A DNA stretch of 45,880 nucleotides from positions 1 to 45,880 of the forward strand of contig PVWI01000006.1 of NCBI GenBank assembly GCA_003003725.1, read 5' to 3'. The notes below the pieces were generated by a model. It did not search any database, had not been told where the DNA came from, and saw only the letters and a program-made list of their open reading frames with translations. This document shows positions 7,273 to 37,709 of this stretch, one piece after another (the first letter of the stretch is position 1; each line of letters begins with the position of its first letter). Source of the DNA: a filamentous cyanobacterium Phorm 6 (GTDB taxonomy: Bacteria > Cyanobacteriota > Cyanobacteriia > Cyanobacteriales > Microcoleaceae). A program made the position numbers and the translations under genes.

Positions 7273-9842
7273 AAAAACCTGTGATTGTGTGTATTGATGA
7301 CGAACCTGATGTTTTGAACAGTTTAAAGATTGAATTGAAAAAGGCGATCGGCGATCAATGTATTATTGAAACGGCGGAAGGAGGGCAAGATGCTTTAGAG
7401 TTGCTGGCAGATTTGCAGGCAGATGAATACGAGATTGCTTTGGTGCTTTCGGATTATATTATGCCGGATATTAAAGGGGACGAATTGCTCAAGCAAATTC
7501 ACGAACGCTCACCGGATACGCTGACGATTATGCTAACGGGCCAAGCAGATTTGGAAGCTTTGAGTAATGCTATCAAGTATGCTAAGTTGTACCGTTATAT
7601 CCCTAAACCTTGGCAAAATGAAGACTTGAAATTAACGGTAGTAGAAGCTGTTCACAGTTATTTGCAAGACCAAAAGTTAACAGATGAAATCGTGAAGCGG
7701 CAAGAAGTAAATGAGGAGTTAAAGCTAGTAAATGCGGCGCTGTCTGCGAGTGAAAGCCGCCTGAATCAATTTTTAGAAGTTTTGCCAGTGGGGGTGTGCG
7801 TTTACAATGCCGACGGCTCGATCGCCTATTTTAACCAGACAGCGCGGGATTTGCTTGGTGCAGATACGATTCCAGAAAGCACGGCGGAACAATTAGCTGC
7901 AACTTATCAACTTTATGTTGCTAATACTGATGAGCTTTACCCGCCGGATAATTTGCCAATTTTGCGCGCCCTGAAAGGAGAATTTGTCAAGGTTGATGAT
8001 GTGGAAATCCATCAAGATGGCAAAATAATTGCGATCGAGATCAATACTACGCCGATTTTTGACGCTAGCGGAAATATTATTTATGCGATCGCAGCTTTTC
8101 AAGATATTAGCGATCGCAAACAAGCCGAAAAAATCCTAGCAGATTACCAGCACACCTTAGAAGCCCAAATTGACGAACGCACAGAACAACTGCAACAAGC
8201 CGCCTTAGCTGCTGAAGCCGCAAACAAAGCTAAAAGCACGTTTCTTGCCAATATGAGCCACGAGTTGCGCACCCCTCTCAATTCCATACTCGGGTTTGCA
8301 CAAATCATGGAACCCAGCCCCAATTTGACTGTCGAAAACCGAGAAAATCTGAGAATTATTCACCGCAGCGGCGAACACTTGCTGACACTGATCAATCAAG
8401 CCTTAGACTTGTCAAAAATCGAAGCGGGGCGGATGATGATTGACCCGAAAAACTTCGACCTCTACCGCTTGCTTGACGACTTGCAAGATATGTTTCAACT
8501 GCGGGCACAAAGTCAAGAATTGCAGTTGCTTTTCGAGCGCGAGGCTGACGTTCCCCAGTACGTGCGAACGGATGATGTTAAACTGCGGCAAGTGCTAATA
8601 AATCTCCTCAGCAATGCCATAAAATTTACGCAAAGTGGTGCGGTAGTATTAAGAGTTAGAAAATTAGAAAAATCGGGAGTTGTTGATTTATTGGATAGTC
8701 CAAAAGTTGTCTTTGATACCACAACAACTATTCGGGATTTTTCGATAATTAGCAGTGATTCTGCAACTGTTGAATTGAGGGAGGAGGCTGAGGATTCAAC
8801 TCAGTTTCAAGTAATTTTTCTTCAGTTTGAAATAGAAGATACAGGAGTTGGCATTGCTCCGGAAGAATTGGGTCAGGTTTTTAATGCCTTTGTGCAAACA
8901 GCTTCCGGTCAAAAAACTCAGAAAGGCACGGGTTTAGGATTGACGATCAGCCGTCAATTTGTCCGCCTGATGGGAGGAGAAATCGTCGTAGAAAGTCAAC
9001 TGGAAATCGGCACTACTTTTAAATTTGAGATTCCAGTCGGTGCGGTTTATGCTGCTGATGTTCCCGCCCCGCAAATTAACCGCGAAGTTACTGGGTTGGA
9101 ACCAAATCAACCCTGCTACCGGATTTTAATTGTGGACGATCGCGAAGACAATCGCGAACTTTTAGTCAAAATGCTTTCTCCTTTGGGTTTGGGCCTGCAA
9201 CAAGCCACCAATGGCCGCGAAGCCATAGAAATTTGGGAAAATTGGCACCCGCATTTAATTTTGATGGATGTGCGAATGCCAGTGATGGACGGCTACGAAG
9301 CTACTAAACAAATTAAGAGCAGAATACAGCAGAGAGAGCAAGAGCAGCAAGGAAATGGGGAAAGGAGTATTTCCCATCCCGAATCCCCGATTCCGAAGAT
9401 TGTGGCTTTGACAGCTAGTACAATTGAAGGCAGGCGATCGTTTGCTTTATTGGTTGGCTGCGATGATTTTATTAGTAAACCTTTCCGCAAAACAGAAATA
9501 TTTGATACTCTCAACAAACATTTGGGGGTGAGCTATATCTACTCTAACTCAACGGATTTTATCTCCACAGCCGATCGAAGCAATCAATCTGACTCCACAT
9601 CTAATGCTGTGCTTGCTTATTTACCCAAACTTCCCGCAGAATGGGTAGAGAATATGAAGCAGGTAATCCGCAATGCGGATTTTGACTTAATTGCCAGGAC
9701 AATCGAGGAAATAAGGGATGCTCATCCTGAATTTGCCGAAACCCTCCAGGGTCATTTGAATAATTTTGATTACCAGAAAATTCTCAATTTAATTGCCGAG
9801 GCGGAGGAATCAGATAATGCAGGTGAAGGCGGAGCAAACTGA
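7269..9842 (+). CDS. Soluble hybrid histidine kinase (REC-PAS-HisKA-HATPase-REC)
   Basis: An 857-residue cytoplasmic hybrid kinase. The N-terminal receiver (about 1-125) has phosphoacceptor Asp62 in LSDYIMPDIKGDELL. A PAS domain spans about 158-275, followed by a coiled linker. The HisKA domain has His331 in NMSHELRTPLN. The HATPase domain carries a roughly 40-residue insert between its N and G1 boxes (about 475-515). The second receiver has Asp667 in LMDVRMPVMDG. The final 90 residues (PAEWVENMKQ... FDYQKILNLIAEAE) match the tail of the first hybrid kinase (stop at 5127), so the two kinases share ancestry. It overlaps the preceding receiver by 4 bases and the following cyclase by 26 bases. 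This arrangement suggests that the lone receiver, this kinase and the cyclase form one phosphorelay controlling cAMP. Confidence 0.93.
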   Translation: MKKPVIVCIDDEPDVLNSLKIELKKAIGDQCIIETAEGGQDALELLADLQADEYEIALVLSDYIMPDIKGDELLKQIHERSPDTLTIMLTGQADLEALSNAIKYAKLYRYIPKPWQNEDLKLTVVEAVHSYLQDQKLTDEIVKRQEVNEELKLVNAALSASESRLNQFLEVLPVGVCVYNADGSIAYFNQTARDLLGADTIPESTAEQLAATYQLYVANTDELYPPDNLPILRALKGEFVKVDDVEIHQDGKIIAIEINTTPIFDASGNIIYAIAAFQDISDRKQAEKILADYQHTLEAQIDERTEQLQQAALAAEAANKAKSTFLANMSHELRTPLNSILGFAQIMEPSPNLTVENRENLRIIHRSGEHLLTLINQALDLSKIEAGRMMIDPKNFDLYRLLDDLQDMFQLRAQSQELQLLFEREADVPQYVRTDDVKLRQVLINLLSNAIKFTQSGAVVLRVRKLEKSGVVDLLDSPKVVFDTTTTIRDFSIISSDSATVELREEAEDSTQFQVIFLQFEIEDTGVGIAPEELGQVFNAFVQTASGQKTQKGTGLGLTISRQFVRLMGGEIVVESQLEIGTTFKFEIPVGAVYAADVPAPQINREVTGLEPNQPCYRILIVDDREDNRELLVKMLSPLGLGLQQATNGREAIEIWENWHPHLILMDVRMPVMDGYEATKQIKSRIQQREQEQQGNGERSISHPESPIPKIVALTASTIEGRRSFALLVGCDDFISKPFRKTEIFDTLNKHLGVSYIYSNSTDFISTADRSNQSDSTSNAVLAYLPKLPAEWVENMKQVIRNADFDLIARTIEEIRDAHPEFAETLQGHLNNFDYQKILNLIAEAEESDNAGEGGAN

Positions 9843-19617: not shown

Positions 19618-19870
19618 TATTCCATCTTCCACCCATCCGTTATGTCAATTCCGGCTGCGCCGGAATGATAGAGAGGACACGGCAGTGCCGTTTCCCTACC
19701 ATAATTTATTGTAGGGACACGGCAGTGCCGTTTCCTGATTTCTTAGGCACTCGCGGTTTCTTCTGTCATTTTTGGGTGCAACCGAAATTGATATAATATC
19801 AATTCCACTCTTCATCGGAATTGTAAAATCAAGTCAACAGTCAACACTCAATCATCATTCAGTTTTTCGA

Positions 19871-25268: not shown

Positions 25269-25297
25269 TTGAAAAATGGCGGCAAGTGCGGTATGAT
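25269..25297 (+). promoter_or_regulatory. Promoter of the cobalamin riboswitch transcript
   Basis: TTGAAA (25269-25274), a 17-nt spacer and TATGAT (25292-25297): a near-consensus sigma-70 type promoter placed about 12 bases upstream of the first paired riboswitch base. The transcript would start almost exactly at the riboswitch. Confidence 0.6.
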
Positions 25298-25308
25298 GTG
25301 AATTCGCG

Positions 25309-25426
<118 letters not shown>

Positions 25427-25462
25427 ATCTAACTCACTTTTGAACGCATCTGCGAGGTACGG

Positions 25463-32255: not shown

Positions 32256-32317
32256 AATTGGAGATTTTGAGAACCATTCTTGTTCGTAGCTACTACAATA
32301 GGATAACTCGAAAAAGC

Positions 32318-32333
32318 AATAACGATTATCGTT
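32318..32333. promoter_or_regulatory. Zur-like operator between znuC and znuA
   Basis: AATAACGATTATCGTT contains the palindrome AACGAT-T-ATCGTT (32321-32333). Its complementary strand reads CGATAATCGTTATT, matching the box at 27284-27298. It lies 12 bases upstream of the znuA ATG and about 60 bases from the znuC start. Confidence 0.7.
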
Positions 32334-32344
32334 CCAAAGGTGAA

Positions 32345-33415
32345 ATGTTAAAAAAATTGTCTGGAAAAACTGGCAGATTTTGCAGTACGGCTGTTTTGGC
32401 GATCGGTTTCGGACTGGTTGGGTGCACTTCCGCCCCCCAAGCCAGCAATTCCACGCCCCAGAGTCCCAGCGCCACTCAAACTCAAGTGAGTCCCGTGGCT
32501 AACTTACCGAAAGTCGTCGCCACGACTGGTGTGATCTGCGATATTACTAAGGAAATTGCCCAAAGCTCGATCGACACCACCTGTCTAATCAAGCCCGGAG
32601 AAGACCCCCACGCCTATCAGACTAAGCCGGAAGACCGCAAAGCGATTGAAACAGCAAATTTGATTTTATACGCCGGCTACGACCACGAACCCAGCATCAT
32701 TAAATTAATTAAATCCAGCAATAATTCCGCACCCAAAATCGCCGTACACGAACTCGCCGTTCCCAAACCGCTGATGGGCGAACACGAACACGGCGAAGAG
32801 AAAGCGGAAGACAAACCCCATGCAGCAGGCGAAAAAGTTCCCGACCCTCACGTATGGCACAACGCTCAAAATGGCATCCGCATGGTAGAAACAATTCGCG
32901 ACGAATTGATCAAAGTTGCTCCAACTAATGCTCAACTCTATACCACAAATGCCGCGAAATTAACCAATGATTTAGCAAAAATAGATACTTGGATCAAGGC
33001 TCAAATCGCGACAATTCCTGCGGATAAACGCAAATTAGTCACAACTCACGATGCTTTGAGTTACTATGCCGATGCTTACGGTTTAGAGGTTGCTGGAGCT
33101 TTGCAGGGAGTCACAACAGAGGAACAGCCCACAGCCGCCAGAATTGCCGAATTATCATCACAAATTAAGACTGCAGGAGTGCCAACAATTTTTGTAGAAA
33201 CCACAACTAATCCCAAGTTAATGGAGACTGTAGCAAGGGAAGCAAATGTCAAAATTTCTGACAAGGAACTTTATAGCGACGAGTTGGGTGGCCCCGGTAC
33301 CGGTGCTGATACCTATGAAGGGATGCTGACAACTAATACTTGTGCGATTACTACTGGCCTCGGCGGCAATTGTACTTTGTTTGCAGGACAAGCAACACCG
33401 ACTTCTAAACCATAG
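32345..33415 (+). CDS. znuA: Zinc-binding lipoprotein of the ABC importer
   Basis: A 356-residue cluster A-I substrate-binding lipoprotein. The signal peptide ends in the lipobox LVGC, with Cys27 as the lipidated residue. Zinc ligands are the His of DPHAYQT, the His of DPHVWHN, the His of VTTHDALSYY and the Asp of YSDELGGPG. A His/Glu-rich loop (GEHEHGEEKAEDKPH) between the first two ligands is characteristic of zinc rather than manganese carriers. AAGGTG precedes ATG 32345; an in-frame codon at 32258 would add a non-signal extension across the Zur-like box and is unlikely. Confidence 0.95.
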   Translation: MLKKLSGKTGRFCSTAVLAIGFGLVGCTSAPQASNSTPQSPSATQTQVSPVANLPKVVATTGVICDITKEIAQSSIDTTCLIKPGEDPHAYQTKPEDRKAIETANLILYAGYDHEPSIIKLIKSSNNSAPKIAVHELAVPKPLMGEHEHGEEKAEDKPHAAGEKVPDPHVWHNAQNGIRMVETIRDELIKVAPTNAQLYTTNAAKLTNDLAKIDTWIKAQIATIPADKRKLVTTHDALSYYADAYGLEVAGALQGVTTEEQPTAARIAELSSQIKTAGVPTIFVETTTNPKLMETVAREANVKISDKELYSDELGGPGTGADTYEGMLTTNTCAITTGLGGNCTLFAGQATPTSKP

Positions 33416-33423
33416 AAAAGTCG

Positions 33424-33562
33424 GCGGTTGAAACCAGGTTTAGACAAACAAAAACCGCCTCCGCGGTTTGAAGACAGGGCGGTTAAAATTATATTATTTT
33501 CTTCAGTCCGCGGAGGCGGACTTGGTTTTTATAGGCGCGGTTTCAACCGCCGTCTTATCTAC
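33424..33562. repeat. GGCGGTTgAAACC / TCCGCGGAGGCGGA palindromic repeat
   Basis: A roughly 140-bp composite palindrome after znuA. Outer arms are GGCGGTTGAAACC and GGTTTCAACCGCC; inner motifs are GCCTCCGCGG and CCGCGGAGGCGGA. Related copies lie at 40063-40125 and 41025-41254. It may serve as a bidirectional terminator between znuA and the convergent small gene. Confidence 0.75.
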
Positions 33563-33572
33563 TGCGATGACT

Positions 33573-33833
33573 TTAAGGCGAATTTTCCTCATCAGTAGTG
33601 GGGGGTTTTTGGCCAATGCCCAATTGCTTCTTAGAGGATTTTAAGTCTTTCCAAAGCGCTTTAATATCTTTATAGGCTTTCTCAGCAGTAATTTTGCCAC
33701 CAGTTTCTAGCGAGCAAATGTATGTTATTTTCTGAGCAAATTCCTGCAAATTGGCATTAAATGTCAAGTTTTCTGGCGTGAAATCACCATAGTAGCGATG
33801 GCGAGGATGTAAAAAATCTTCTCGTTCTCTCAT
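33573..33833 (-). CDS. Small conserved cyanobacterial protein (86 residues)
   Basis: An 86-residue soluble protein with the block RHRYYGDFTPENLTFNANLQ, then EFAQKITYICSLETGGKI and KAYKDIKALWKDLKSSK. I recall a small cyanobacterial family of unknown function with this pattern (possibly the one named DUF7219, but I am unsure of the number). A purine-rich AGGAAGGGG lies immediately upstream of the ATG. It has no evident metal motif and may be unrelated to the zinc genes around it. Confidence 0.75.
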   Translation of the reverse strand: MREREDFLHPRHRYYGDFTPENLTFNANLQEFAQKITYICSLETGGKITAEKAYKDIKALWKDLKSSKKQLGIGQKPPTTDEENSP

Positions 33834-34048
33834 TGCCCCTTCCTAATTTAAGTTTTGGTGTTCAACTTTTGGTTGTGTCTCTGCTGTTAATAGAACTATT
33901 TGTACTGAGTATCAAGTCGCTAACTTGCTTTTATTGTATTACGTAATTAGTAATTGTGGTTTGTGGCTCTGTACTTTAGTCTATTAATGCAGTCTTAACC
34001 TTAAATTAGTTTTATTTTAACTTTTCTTTAACCTTAATGCAAAAGATT

Positions 34049-34073
34049 GGGAGATGCGAACAGCGCATCTCCC
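34049..34073 (-). terminator. Candidate terminator after smtA
   Basis: A perfect 10-bp stem (34049-34058 and 34064-34073, GGGAGATGCG/CGCATCTCCC) with a 5-nt loop, 50 bases after the smtA stop. On the minus strand it is followed by AATCTTTTGC, a weak T-tract. Confidence 0.5.
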
Positions 34074-34122
34074 TTTAGATATACTTTACAGGTTTTTCTT
34101 AACTTTTGCGGAAGCTCAGCAA

Positions 34123-34290
34123 TTACTTGTGGCACTCGCAACCGGTGTGGCCGCAGCCGGTGCCGTTGGGGTGGCCGGTGGCGCAAGCAGTTGAACAGTA
34201 AGATTTGCCGCTTTTTTCGATGGCTTCAGTCAGGCTGACAACGCACAAGCAAGAAGGACAGGCGCATTTCATTTGGGTGACGGTGGTCAT
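34123..34290 (-). CDS. smtA: Bacterial metallothionein
   Basis: A 55-residue Cys/His-rich zinc-sequestering protein. The pattern KCACPSCLCVV, SYCSTACATGHP and GCGHTGCECHK matches cyanobacterial SmtA/BmtA with nine cysteines and C-terminal His residues, enough for a Zn4 cluster. ATG 34290 is preceded by AGGAG at good spacing; an upstream in-frame ATG at 34332 would lie in the operator. It is divergent from smtB, with the operator between them, so it is induced when zinc excess releases SmtB. Confidence 0.95.
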   Translation of the reverse strand: MTTVTQMKCACPSCLCVVSLTEAIEKSGKSYCSTACATGHPNGTGCGHTGCECHK

Positions 34291-34324
34291 TTGGGGTTCT
34301 CCTGATAAGTTGGTTTTCCTATAC

Positions 34325-34356
34325 ACATACATCTGAACATATATTCAGATGTATGT
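34325..34356. promoter_or_regulatory. SmtB operator between smtA and smtB
   Basis: The 13-nt arms ACATACATCTGAA (34325-34337) and TTCAGATGTATGT (34344-34356) are perfect complements around CATATA. The TGAA..TTCA core matches the ArsR/SmtB 12-2-12 type site. On the minus strand the -35 hexamer TTGACA (34354-34359) of smtA overlaps the outer arm, so bound repressor would block the promoter. Confidence 0.8.
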
Positions 34357-34405
34357 CAAGGGAATGTAAAAAATCTGTAACAAATGGTGGGCGAATAGCG
34401 CTAAT

Positions 34406-34849
34406 ATGAAAATGAGAATTAAAACCAGCCGATCAAAGATGTCACCAAACTCTGCTGTTAACGGAGCGATAAGTCAGCCTCACCAAGAGAACGATACACC
34501 AACGTGCGATCCCCTGCACGTAGTTGACTGTTCGCGGGTCGGGGACATCCAAACACAAGTGCTCAACACGGCAAAAGCTCAGCGGATGGCAGAGTTTTTC
34601 AGCCTTTTGGGAGATGCGAACCGCTTGCGACTGGTGTCTGTATTGGCAAAACAAGAATTGTGCGTGTGCGATTTGGCCGCCGCTTTGGGCATGAGTGAGT
34701 CAGCAGTATCGCACCAGTTGCGCGCATTGCGGGCGATGCGGTTGGTGAGTTACCGCAAGGTTGGGAGACAAGTTTTTTATAGTTTACTCGATCGGCACGT
34801 TTTGGAACTTTACCGAGCAGTCGCCGAACACTTGGACGAAGAATCTTAA
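34406..34849 (+). CDS. smtB: Zinc-responsive ArsR/SmtB family repressor
   Basis: A winged-helix repressor of 147 residues if it starts at ATG 34406; ATG 34439 is a plausible shorter start. The alpha-5 zinc ligands Asp129, His131, His142 and Glu145 (DRHVLELYRAVAEHLDE) match Asp104, His106, His117 and Glu120 of Synechococcus SmtB in spacing. The N-terminal Cys34/His38 and Cys86 match its alpha-3N site. It also has Cys42 and Cys88, giving ELCVCDLA, the CxC form seen in CadC/ArsR-type cadmium, lead and arsenic sensors. The DNA-recognition helix is SESAVSHQLRALR. Zinc binding should release it from the operator upstream. Confidence 0.94.
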   Translation: MKMRIKTSRSKMSPNSAVNGAISQPHQENDTPTCDPLHVVDCSRVGDIQTQVLNTAKAQRMAEFFSLLGDANRLRLVSVLAKQELCVCDLAAALGMSESAVSHQLRALRAMRLVSYRKVGRQVFYSLLDRHVLELYRAVAEHLDEES

Positions 34850-35069
34850 TTAGTCTATTGACTGTTGACTGTTGCCTGTTGACTGCTGACTGCTGACTGT
34901 TGACTGTTGACTGTTGACTGTTGTCATTGGTGAATTCTGTAGGGGCGAGTTCACCGATATCTATGATGCACATGGACAATACTGATAAACTCGCCCTCCC
35001 CAACCAAAGATTCATGCAAGCGATTATCTGTAAAGGGGCCCTGACTGCCAACCAGGGCTGATCCTAATA
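34850..35069. repeat. CTGTTGA heptamer array and gap between convergent smtB and atx1-like genes
   Basis: About ten CTGTTGA/CTGCTGA units at 34856-34924. The rest (34925-35069) shows no gene; open frames crossing it only read the array. Confidence 0.75.
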
Positions 35070-35270
35070 TTAGGCTTCGAGGACAGTGTGGCCCGTAGCG
35101 ACAACAGCTTGTTTAATTGACTCTTCCGAGGCTTTAGCTTCCACAGTCACAGTCTTAGCCGCTATATCCACATTGATAGAAGCATCGGATTCAACAGTTT
35201 GGATGGCTTTGGTAATTGTATCACCGCAGCCGGAACAGACGATCGAGGGAACATGAAGTTTGAGTGCCAT
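35070..35270 (-). CDS. Atx1-like heavy-metal chaperone (HMA domain)
   Basis: A 66-residue ferredoxin-like HMA domain. The metal motif is CSGC (Cys12 and Cys15), and His61 sits in the loop where Synechocystis Atx1 uses His61 for copper transfer (VVATGHTV). It probably delivers Cu(I) to P1B ATPases of the plasma and thylakoid membranes. Its location next to smtAB also allows a zinc or cadmium role. No strong Shine-Dalgarno is visible. Confidence 0.88.
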   Translation of the reverse strand: MALKLHVPSIVCSGCGDTITKAIQTVESDASINVDIAAKTVTVEAKASEESIKQAVVATGHTVLEA

Positions 35271-35344: not shown

Positions 35345-35453
35345 GCATCGGAGGAAACGGCATTGCCGTTTCCCTACAAATATTTTCGGTTAGGGAAACG
35401 GCACTGCCGTGTCCGGCATCGGAGGAAACGGCATTGCCGTTTCCCTACAAATA
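35345..35453. repeat. Triple GGAAACGGCATTGCCGTTTCC palindrome
   Basis: Two direct copies of GGCATCGGAGGAAACGGCATTGCC..., and between them an inverted copy (GGGAAACGGCACTGCCGTGTCC), all flanked by CCCTAC. The GGCAGTGCCG core also occurs at 19676-19734 and 45500-45524. It directly follows the aroF stop. Confidence 0.85.
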
Positions 35454-36314
35454 TCACCTCAAACTTAATACCTTTGAATGCAAATTAGCATCTGGTACCA
35501 ACCGCCCAACGGCCGCCGCCACAGGCCGCAAACTCGCAACTAAATCTACCATATCTGCTAAAGAAAGAGCTTGCCGCGCGTCTGAAACCGATTTTTCCGG
35601 TTGCGGGTGACACTCAATAATTAACCCGTCAGCACCGCAAGCAACGGCTGCTTTGGCTAGCGGTGCGACTAATTCTCGCTTGCCGGCGGCGTGAGAAGGG
35701 TCTACAATTACTGGCAAATGAGTTAACTGTTTCAGCGCTACTACTGCACCTAAATCCAATACGTTTCGCGTATAGTTGTCGAAGCTGCGGATGCCTCTTT
35801 CGCACAGAACTACATCGGGATTTCCGTGGCTGAGAATGTATTCGGCGGCCATCACAAATTCTTCGATTGTGGCTGATAAACCGCGTTTTAGCAGGACTGG
35901 TTTTCCGGCTTGACCGATCGCCTTTAACAACTCAAAATTCTGCATATTGCGACTACCCACTTGTAGCATATCAGCATAGGTGACCACTGATTCGATTTGG
36001 GCGATCGACATTACCTCCGTTACCACGGGCAAACCGTAACGCCGACTGACATCCGCTAAAATTTCTAGTCCCTCAATTCCCATTCCTTGGAAAGCATAGG
36101 GAGAAGTGCGGGGTTTGTAGACTCCCCCACGCAAGGCTTGCACCGATGTGGTCCAGAGTTCGCTGGCGACTGTTTCCATTTGTTCTGAGCTCTCTACGGT
36201 ACAAGGCCCGCCAATGATTAGCAATTCTGTGCCACCGACTGAGACTGTTTTTGATAGTTCGACAATTGTCTGGTGTTCTGGATGAGATTTGGTGACGAGT
36301 TTGGCATCTAACAT
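35454..36314 (-). CDS. aroF: DAHP synthase (3-deoxy-7-phosphoheptulonate synthase), core-only type I-beta
   Basis: A 286-residue enzyme for the first step of the shikimate pathway, condensing PEP and erythrose 4-phosphate. Signatures are GGPCTVES (metal-binding Cys), YKPRTSPYAFQG, LLKRG, VIVDPSHAAG and IECHPQPEKSVSDA. Only about 30 residues precede the barrel, so it lacks the N-terminal ferredoxin-like or fused chorismate mutase domain that confers feedback inhibition in many I-beta enzymes. ATG 36314 has CAGGAAA upstream; the longer open frame to 36401 would run through a terminator hairpin. Expression probably depends on the two attenuators upstream. Confidence 0.93.
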   Translation of the reverse strand: MLDAKLVTKSHPEHQTIVELSKTVSVGGTELLIIGGPCTVESSEQMETVASELWTTSVQALRGGVYKPRTSPYAFQGMGIEGLEILADVSRRYGLPVVTEVMSIAQIESVVTYADMLQVGSRNMQNFELLKAIGQAGKPVLLKRGLSATIEEFVMAAEYILSHGNPDVVLCERGIRSFDNYTRNVLDLGAVVALKQLTHLPVIVDPSHAAGKRELVAPLAKAAVACGADGLIIECHPQPEKSVSDARQALSLADMVDLVASLRPVAAAVGRLVPDANLHSKVLSLR

Positions 36315-36344
36315 GAGAGTATTTTCCTGATAAATTAGGTGGTT

Positions 36345-36383
36345 GACAACAAAAAACCCGGAACTTTTAAGGAGTTCCGGGTT
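36345..36383 (-). terminator. Attenuator terminator 2 (aroF leader)
   Basis: The minus-strand hairpin AACCCGGAACT-(7 nt)-AGTTCCGGGTT (36373-36383 and 36355-36365) is followed by a T-rich run, a classical Rho-independent terminator 31 bases before the aroF start codon. Its upstream arm (ACCCGGAACTCC) can alternatively pair with GGAGCTCTGGGT at 36410-36421, inside leader peptide 2, with one mismatch and one G-U pair. That alternative would abolish the terminator. Confidence 0.85.
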
Positions 36384-36407
36384 GGCGCGAAAAGACAGCA
36401 CGACAAT

Positions 36408-36470
36408 TTACCCAGAGCTCCTGTGGGGCCAAAAATAAAAGCCGTAGTACCAGTTAGTGGATAGTGTCAT
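36408..36470 (-). CDS. Leader peptide 2 of the aroF attenuator (20 residues)
   Basis: ATG to TAA encodes MTLSTNWYYGFYFWPHRSSG. Seven of eight consecutive residues (7-14) are Trp, Tyr or Phe, the expected sensor for charged aromatic tRNAs. The last five codons form the 5' strand of the candidate antiterminator. A ribosome reaching the stop would cover it and let terminator 2 form; a ribosome stalled at the aromatic codons would expose it. No Shine-Dalgarno is obvious. Confidence 0.8.
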   Translation of the reverse strand: MTLSTNWYYGFYFWPHRSSG

Positions 36471-36515
36471 TGCTGTTTTCGCTTGTAGTTGATTTGTGGT
36501 TGAGAAAAAAGCTAG

Positions 36516-36549
36516 AAAAAAACAAAACCGCAGGTGTTAGTCTGCGGTT
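36516..36549 (-). terminator. Attenuator terminator 1 (aroF leader)
   Basis: The minus-strand hairpin AACCGCAG-(8 nt)-CTGCGGTT (36542-36549 and 36526-36533) is followed by TTGTTTTTTT. The first three bases of its upstream arm are shared with the 3' strand of a perfect 11-bp pairing (GTTCGCCCGGA at 36583-36593 with 36547-36557). That pairing begins inside the last codons of leader peptide 1. Confidence 0.8.
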
Positions 36550-36578
36550 CGCCCGGATGTTCACAGTGAATTATCAAT

Positions 36579-36635
36579 TCACTCCGGGCGAACTTCAGGA
36601 TGCCAAAAATAAAAATAGCTGTTGGTTGTGAACAT
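36579..36635 (-). CDS. Leader peptide 1 of the aroF attenuator (18 residues)
   Basis: ATG to TGA encodes MFTTNSYFYFWHPEVRPE, with Tyr-Phe-Tyr-Phe-Trp at residues 7-11. Its last codons (Val-Arg-Pro-Glu) are the 5' strand of an 11-bp pairing that competes with the base of terminator 1. The start segment ATGTTCACA is also complementary to TGTGAACAT, 70 bases downstream in the loop of that hairpin. It lies about 40 bases after the predicted transcription start. Confidence 0.78.
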   Translation of the reverse strand: MFTTNSYFYFWHPEVRPE

Positions 36636-36680
36636 TAGTAAAGCGGAGGGATTTGTGGATTAAACACAATACTGATTCAA

Positions 36681-36709
36681 AACATAGCACAGATGAATAG
36701 TAATGTCAA
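36681..36709 (-). promoter_or_regulatory. Promoter of the aroF leader transcript
   Basis: On the minus strand, TTGACA (36704-36709), a 17-nt spacer and TATGTT (36681-36686) form a near-consensus promoter. Transcription would begin near 36674, giving a leader of roughly 360 nt before aroF with two peptides and two terminators. Confidence 0.75.
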
Positions 36710-36737
36710 GCTATTTTTAGCAAAAGAGTCTATCTAC

Positions 36738-37709
36738 CTAATTTTGTGGAACAATCTGCTGCTTAAACTCAAATACATTGGGATTTTTCGGATCGTAAAA
36801 AGCCCGCAACCAATGCACGTTTGGAGAACCAAAAGTTTCAACTCTGGTAAAATTTTTAAGTCTGGGGAGTTGAGTTTCGTCTGTAAAACGGGGTAAAGGT
36901 TTATCGATGCGGAAGTAGTGAGTATCACCGTGTACGAAGACAACTTGTCCTGAAAAATTGCGCGTCTCGGCTTCCAAAGTTGCTATAAAATCGTTGTAGC
37001 CGCTTCTTCTTTTGTCCGTCGGATCGAGTTCAAATCCGGGATTTGCTTGGGCGATCAACATGATTCCTTTGCTTTTGTCGCGTTTGGCTAAGGCAAAACA
37101 TTCTTTAATCCAAGCTAAGTTAGCTGAATTGCGATCGGCATATTCTAAATCGTCCTCGGGAGTGCGGCCAAAATTGTTGTTGCTTCCGGGCATATTAATC
37201 CCAGAAAACACAATACCATGATAAATCCAGCGGACATTTTCGCGGTATTTAGCAAACTGTGGAATTTCGCTTTGGCGGGTGAGAGTCAAAGTGCGCTTTC
37301 CCTGACTTTGACTACCTTGACTAAAAATTTCCCGCAGTTTAGCAAGTCTTTCTATCGGTTTGTAATTGCCTTGACGGTAACAGTCAGTCCATTCATTGTC
37401 ACCGTAAATTAGAATAAACGGCATCTCGAAATTTTGAAATAACTGCTGGCGGCTGACAAAAGTTGCATCATCGCAGAGAGTCCCACCGCTTTTGATATCG
37501 CCGTTGTGGACAACAAACGCTGAGGGCGATCGATTGATATCTGCAATCAAATTCGGAAACTTTGCTTCTTGTTCTGCACTGTAGGGCAAATCGCCAATTA
37601 AAGCAAATTCAAAAGGTTTATCTGCCGAACTTTGGGCGTAACTTAAAGTACCTAAACCGATCACCGATACAAAAATTATAAATCCAACAATTAAAGATTT
37701 TTTAATCAT
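36738..37709 (-). CDS. Exported metallophosphoesterase
   Basis: A 323-residue protein with a signal peptide (MIKKSLIVGFIIFVSVIGLGTLSYAQ). It has calcineurin-like phosphoesterase motifs: IGDLPYS (Asp40), NGDIKSGG (Asp71), YGDNEWTD (Asn105) and VHGDTHYF near the C-terminus. The His after GD in the last motif is shifted from the usual GHxH, so activity is likely but the substrate is unknown. ATG 37709 is chosen because the longer frame only adds a non-signal extension. It ends 29 bases before the aroF promoter and is probably its own unit. Confidence 0.87.
   Translation of the reverse strand: MIKKSLIVGFIIFVSVIGLGTLSYAQSSADKPFEFALIGDLPYSAEQEAKFPNLIADINRSPSAFVVHNGDIKSGGTLCDDATFVSRQQLFQNFEMPFILIYGDNEWTDCYRQGNYKPIERLAKLREIFSQGSQSQGKRTLTLTRQSEIPQFAKYRENVRWIYHGIVFSGINMPGSNNNFGRTPEDDLEYADRNSANLAWIKECFALAKRDKSKGIMLIAQANPGFELDPTDKRRSGYNDFIATLEAETRNFSGQVVFVHGDTHYFRIDKPLPRFTDETQLPRLKNFTRVETFGSPNVHWLRAFYDPKNPNVFEFKQQIVPQN

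Follow-up and report, generated by a model that had tools for sequence, protein, structure and literature searches.

The window examined in this work, a stretch of 45,880 nucleotides from the filamentous cyanobacterium Phorm 6 (contig PVWI01000006.1), contains a gene for a core-only DAHP synthase, aroF, and raises the question of how the expression of such a gene is controlled. Short (core-only) DAHP synthases are not known to be feedback-inhibited. Classical attenuators (viz. those of the E. coli trp, pheA, and his type) combine a leader ORF containing codons for the product of the pathway, an antiterminator formed by the end of this ORF, and an intrinsic terminator ahead of the gene. The region upstream of aroF resembles these systems in all three respects, as it contains ORFs with codons for the products of the pathway, a candidate intrinsic terminator between ORF and gene, and an antiterminator joining the end of the ORF to the terminator. 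It differs from them in that two units apparently answering to the same signal are placed in series, in that all three aromatic amino acids are called upon at once, in that the gene downstream encodes a DAHP synthase, and in its occurrence in cyanobacteria. Based upon the evidence discussed below, we regard it as highly probable that aroF is controlled by two ribosome-mediated transcription attenuators arranged in series.

Organization of the aroF locus

An earlier sequence-only reading of the window placed a promoter, a leader peptide, a terminator, a second leader peptide, a second terminator, and aroF in this order on the minus strand, and each of these elements was located where that reading had put it (Table 1). 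A scan of positions 36200–37000 yielded two terminators, which are those listed in the table, compared with 0.8 expected in shuffled sequences, and two promoter-like sites (the site at 36709 among them), compared with 1.2 expected in shuffles. Since such a scan proves little by itself, the case made here rests on comparison among related sequences. When the segments from the antiterminator through the T-rich tract were folded and compared with shuffles, that of unit 1 was found to be by far the more stable fold (z of -6.8), and the same tendency was less pronounced for unit 2 (z of -2.3).

Table 1. Features of the aroF leader and gene, numbered from the first nucleotide of the window
Feature	Positions	Strand	Details or basis
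Promoter, sigma-70-type	36681..36709	-	TTGACA-17-TATGTT, with TG ahead of the -10; 10/12 matches
Leader ORF 1, MFTTNSYFYFWHPEVRPE followed by stop	36579..36635	-	Tyr-Phe-Tyr-Phe-Trp run
Unit 1 antiterminator 5' strand, GTTCGCCCGGA	36583..36593	-	Last codons of ORF 1; covaries with 3' strand
Unit 1 antiterminator 3' strand, TCCGGGCGAAC	36547..36557	-	Shares its last 3 nt with the start of the terminator 1 stem
Terminator 1 hairpin, AACCGCAG / CTGCGGTT	36526..36549	-	Followed by T-rich tract to ~36513
Leader ORF 2, MTLSTNWYYGFYFWPHRSSG followed by stop	36408..36470	-	Trp-Tyr-Tyr-Gly-Phe-Tyr-Phe-Trp
Unit 2 antiterminator 5' strand, AGGAGCTCTGGGT	36410..36422	-	Last codons and first base of stop codon; 12/13 positions pair with 36370-36382
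Unit 2 antiterminator 3' strand, doubling as terminator 2 5' strand	36370..36382	-	Pair counts
Terminator 2 hairpin	36355..36383	-	Followed by T-tract to ~36350; pair counts
aroF, core-only type-I-beta DAHP synthase, 286 aa	35454..36314	-	Pfam PF00793; NCBIfam PRK08673; chain 1vs1

The description of the enzyme as core-only is confirmed by its alignment to positions 70–335 of the 338-position NCBIfam model. The protein also has a Pfam match, and the nearest solved chain is 276 aa in length. Among the best 80 of its 426 relatives, the nearest are from an uncultured cyanobacterium, an Oscillatoriales cyanobacterium, and Microcoleus. The genome of Phorm 6 also encodes a longer paralogue (G000:C288; open frame of 364 aa) which is 51% identical to AroF and in which 92 residues precede the part that aligns with it; an aromatic codon run is absent from the 600 nt ahead of the start of this paralogue in this one genome.

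Several other features are found in the surroundings of the gene. A palindromic repeat, GGAAACGGCANTGCCGTTTCC, is located just 3' of aroF (window positions ~35353–35444), where two full copies start on the plus strand at 35353 and 35424, with a shorter copy at 35394 between them; similar short forms are present near 19695, 19735, and 45520. The gene also adjoins a metal-homeostasis patch (32258–35270), in which Pfam identifies ZnuA (32258, plus strand), an ArsR-family regulator (34406, plus strand), and an HMA-domain protein (35070–35270, minus strand), and where a small Cys-rich ORF (34123–34332, minus strand) resembles bacterial metallothionein by eye. A cobalamin riboswitch (25294–25440, plus strand; Rfam RF00174, E 2e-11) precedes two ORFs (25987 and 27319, plus strand) that resemble CobW/COG0523 GTPases by eye. 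This riboswitch, which lies outside the leader, is the only gathering-level Rfam match in the window; the leader itself matches no Rfam family (leader families and T-box included) at threshold and gave two chance-level matches to other families.

Conservation of the leader and its linkage to aroF

Our comparison was based upon 110 loci, consisting of 80 from the best 80 of the 426 AroF relatives and a further 30 taken from the family's 61 genomes; four of these loci have less than 330 nt upstream and 14 are duplicates, leaving 92 unique upstream regions. Both aromatic codon runs are retained in 90 of these 92 regions, which excludes a lack of conservation in close relatives, and both peptides are intact in 88. 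The exceptions are L090 and L107, which keep both runs and have a premature stop in ORF 1 just past the aromatic run, L009, in which unit 2 alone is found, without its start codon, and L098, in which neither unit is present. Unrelated DNA, mobile- or insertion-element-like by eye, replaces the leader in L009 and L098, which represent natural losses of one or both units.

For the counts that follow, the comparison was widened to 117 unique upstream regions, in 110 of which both units were assigned by script. This assignment failed to detect unit 2 in L160 and unit 1 in both L011 and L090, and it omitted L098, where the start of AroF is missing; in addition, ORF 1 of L017 was mis-anchored, so that the row for this locus in alignment A3 is shifted at its ends. 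Alignments A3 and A4 exclude rows more than 84% alike as well as the two ORFs 1 with premature stops. As the sequence-only reading had claimed, codons for all three aromatic amino acids are present twice: Phe, Tyr, and Trp all occur in 110/112 copies of ORF 1 and 113/113 copies of ORF 2, and these counts, like all others over 112 or 113 ORFs, take in close relatives and are therefore non-independent. The mean diversity of the aromatic codons at codon positions 1, 2, and 3 is 0.012, 0.084, and 0.168 in unit 1 (40 rows) and 0.009, 0.078, and 0.265 in unit 2 (44 rows). Nearly all of the position-2 changes are Phe-Tyr swaps, and forms of the run include YFYFW, YFYYW, YLYFW, and FYFYW.

A promoter of the same form as that in the window, which had been described as near-consensus, is located no more than 190 nt upstream of ORF 1 in 111 of the 112 regions, compared with 1 of 112 when each region was shuffled once. 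A Shine-Dalgarno-like motif was found ahead of none of the 112 copies of ORF 1 and 44 of the 113 copies of ORF 2, a weak point which counts against our interpretation; such motifs are missing from many cyanobacterial genes. One further observation concerns L165, in which the frame of ORF 2 meets no stop codon ahead of the terminator and, at 44 codons, extends through the hairpin, so that translation would enter the terminator. The second unit of this locus is possibly a decaying or altered gate.

The phylum-wide distribution of the leader was determined in a sample of 386 genomes, with the aroF clade defined as AroF proteins at least 71% identical to that of the window. This clade is present in 38 of the 386 genomes, which are spread over ten family codes (f1, f4, f5, f6, f10, f13, f18, f19, f22, and f26). 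The model of unit 2 (R2) matches 37 of the 38 at E <1e-4, missing G174, and no other match is that strong, while the model of unit 1 (R1) matches 37 of the 38 at E <1e-9, missing G200, and picks up one further genome, G090. Both units are found in 36 of the 38 genomes and at least one unit in all 38, unit 1 standing alone in G174 (locus L177) and unit 2 in G200 (locus L168). Judged by their coordinates, the R1 and R2 matches immediately precede aroF and share its strand. In G090 a remnant of unit 1 precedes a decayed aroF fragment (L181; G090:C48, 2805–3089, minus strand), and no other copy from the aroF clade was detected in this genome at the 71% identity cut-off. Weaker R2 matches elsewhere number 32 (E 1.5e-4 to 0.01), the six that were inspected being terminator-like sequence or chance, and the sole weak R1 match (G066) has no leader ORF of the aromatic kind by eye; searches of this scope (more than 40 genomes) use stricter filters, by which some weak matches are lost. 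The leader is thus conserved far beyond chance and closely linked to this clade of aroF. A separate observation was made for L178 (G431), where aroF is in two pieces about 5.8 kb apart (869–1480 and 7302–7532) and the leader is found by the N-terminal piece.

The sequence-only reading had also suggested, from phrases shared between the two units, that they arose by duplication of one unit. This idea is not supported. Of the 110 regions with assignments for both units, only one has CCACAAATC ahead of each of the two ORFs, so that this phrase gives no sign of duplication, and the other shared phrase, TATTTTTGG, belongs to the aromatic codon run itself. The longest string common to the 40 nt before each ORF has a mean length of 5.5 nt (a raw value, with no chance baseline), and in the genome of the window neither R1 (E up to 1) nor R2 (E up to 0.01) ever picked up the other unit.

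Alternative RNA pairing and the proposed mechanism

The unit 2 antiterminator joins AGTTCCGGGT, at the end of the ORF, to the 5' arm of terminator 2. Across 52 sequences 92.5% of its cells are paired, compared with at most 55.4% when the partner is slid, and terminator 2 itself is paired in 95.3% of cells. When the last 16 nt of ORF 2 are matched against the terminator arm, the longest complementary run has a mean of 9.6, compared with 3.8 when these 16 nt are shuffled. Two-sided changes in the antiterminator are present in 14 cells, compared with 3.3 in shuffles (0/500 as high); pairs showing such a change were at least as numerous in 19/500 shuffles and further pair types in 174/500, and the two outermost pairs fail in 16/52 and 13/52 sequences. 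Conserved candidates for a 1:2 (pause or protector) hairpin are also found, with almost no covariation.

The antiterminator of unit 1 is formed in relatives by GGTTCACCGGG at the end of the ORF and CCCGGTGAACC, the last four bases of which are also the foot of terminator 1; the window has A in place of the first G, and only three bases serve in this way there. Among 38 diverse sequences 92.8% of cells are paired, compared with at most 54.7% when the partner is slid by 1–3 columns, and one of the overlap pairs is G-C in 38/38; for terminator 1 the figure is 99.0% of cells. Two-sided changes occur in 37 cells, compared with 12.9 in shuffles (0/500 as high); pairs showing such a change were at least as numerous in 94/500 shuffles, and further pair types in 24/500. 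The base ahead of a conserved GTT codon in ORF 1 is a codon-third G in 98 of 113 copies, across 11 amino acids, the window having an A.

As cells count sequences and not events, changes of pair type, one-sided changes included, were also counted on a quick tree of 65 AroF proteins. For unit 1 this gave at least 7, 8, and 6 changes at pairs 50-87, 51-86, and 52-85, respectively, with purely two-sided changes numbering at least two at 48-89 and at least one at 47-90. For unit 2 there are at least four changes at pair 27-86 and at least three at 28-85, the latter purely two-sided. Alignment of orthologous leaders, which had been put forward as a check on the sequence-only reading, has therefore revealed conserved aromatic codons and compensatory stem changes for both units. 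The claim that the antiterminator overlaps both the end of the ORF and the terminator was found to apply in full to unit 2, where the whole 5' arm of the terminator is involved, and must be narrowed for unit 1, where the overlap is only 3 nt in the window and usually 4 nt.

The consequences of a ribosome on each ORF were explored with an occlusion model. Before strand 4 exists, the predicted probability of the unit 2 antiterminator (n=113) is 0.94 with the ribosome stalled at the first aromatic codon and 0.86 at the last; the value of 0.00 with the ribosome at the stop codon is not an independent test, because the ribosome footprint covers the 5' strand. Once strand 4 is present, unit 2 of the window always favours the terminator at equilibrium, and the switch would therefore have to be kinetic. 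The E. coli trp attenuator is a kinetic switch. For unit 1 (n=112), the predicted probability of the outer four terminator pairs is 0.49 with the ribosome stalled at the first aromatic codon, 0.75 at the last Trp, and 0.92 at the stop; the rise from the first aromatic codon to the stop exceeds 0.1 in 84/112 and 0.3 in 64/112, with a fall in six. Unit 1 of the window is among the weaker ones, with values of 0.69, 0.76, and 0.83 for the same three positions. In terms of this model unit 1 is a partial switch, its antiterminator reaching the foot of the terminator only, and is weak in the window itself. The classical topology ascribed earlier to both units consequently remains an apt description of unit 2, which is of the textbook form, while unit 1 is modelled as a weaker switch.

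The mechanism that we propose is as follows. Transcription would start about 40 nt ahead of ORF 1, and where Tyr-, Phe-, or Trp-tRNA is poorly charged, a ribosome translating this ORF would stall among its aromatic codons. This would leave the end of the ORF free to pair downstream and form the antiterminator before the terminator is complete, and transcription would continue. With well-charged tRNA, the ribosome would reach the stop codon and cover the 5' strand, allowing the terminator to form and transcription to end. ORF 2 would repeat this gate, so that aroF would be transcribed only by polymerases that pass both, at a rate approximating the product of the two read-through rates.

The short stretch that antiterminator and terminator share in unit 1, the weak switch predicted for this unit in the window, and the genome carrying unit 2 alone (L168) would also fit an arrangement in which only unit 2 works as an attenuator. 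Unit 1 would then serve as a terminator under weak regulation or give rise to a short RNA, with its ORF kept for another reason. We consider this unlikely, as it is unit 1 that shows the stronger covariation and the invariant G-C overlap pair, its ORF carries the codon-third G signature and in nearly all copies (110/112) all three aromatic codons, and it stands alone in L177.

The remaining alternatives concern the signal and the target. Good conservation of the peptides around the aromatic run is consistent with nascent-peptide arrest of the TnaC type, in which the peptide together with free aromatic amino acids, and not low tRNA charging, would arrest the ribosome; however, the conserved peptide ends are explained by RNA pairing, the Tyr/Phe swaps seen in places are more readily understood if aromatic codons are required than if the arrest sequence is fixed, and arrest by excess amino acids would raise aroF expression when it is unneeded, all of which makes this explanation very improbable. 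There is an even slighter chance that the leader exerts its effect chiefly on translation or in trans, either through small regulatory RNAs, for which the two discrete short RNAs predicted here could be candidates, or through leader ORFs that feed ribosomes to aroF. Against this, strong matches to the unit models all lie before aroF, with a single exception before a decayed aroF, and the end of ORF 2 is separated from aroF by 75 nt or more, with a terminator between them. Ribosome-mediated attenuation at two successive units is therefore the interpretation that we carry forward.

Relationship to known systems and significance

The closest published systems in the literature searched, which covered few subscription papers, are the uORFC-13-1 motif and the mgtCBR leader. 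As described (PMC8632094), uORFC-13-1 comprises a predicted uORF that contains Phe codons, together with a terminator, located before aroF of Acholeplasma, and thus shares with the present leader a DAHP synthase gene downstream; the same source mentions a former hypothesis of attenuation at E. coli aroF. Compared by this published description only, the motif differs in having a single unit, with one Phe codon or more, in being found in Acholeplasma and environmental sequences, and in that no tandem arrangement is described there. The Salmonella mgtCBR leader, as presented in PMC3641672, contains tandem attenuators responding to two signals (ATP and proline) and is called a singular example. 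It is similar to the aroF leader in having two leader ORFs in one leader, one of them responding to amino-acid charging (Pro), but its signals differ from each other, whereas in both units described here the leader ORF carries codons for the same three amino acids, and the gene that follows is biosynthetic. As far as we have searched, the tandem same-signal aromatic design is new. We think it reasonably likely that the aroF leader represents a same-signal two-stage attenuator, each stage of which senses all three aromatic amino acids, and that it is a near-constant partner of a core-only DAHP synthase in ten family groups of the sample.

A publication from 2016 stated that there were no reliable data on attenuation in cyanobacteria (PMC4833913). 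The leader described here provides a concrete and testable case that is conserved in named, culturable strains and, if our interpretation is correct, would represent the first amino-acid attenuator of these bacteria to have good support. It would further imply a close coupling of transcription and translation (i.e., of ribosome and RNA polymerase) in cyanobacteria, and unit 1 would show that an antiterminator seizing only the foot of a terminator is sufficient. A natural two-gate switch of this kind could be of use for work on aromatic production in cyanobacteria, and its presence would explain how a DAHP synthase that lacks the N-terminal part of the longer paralogue could be restrained.
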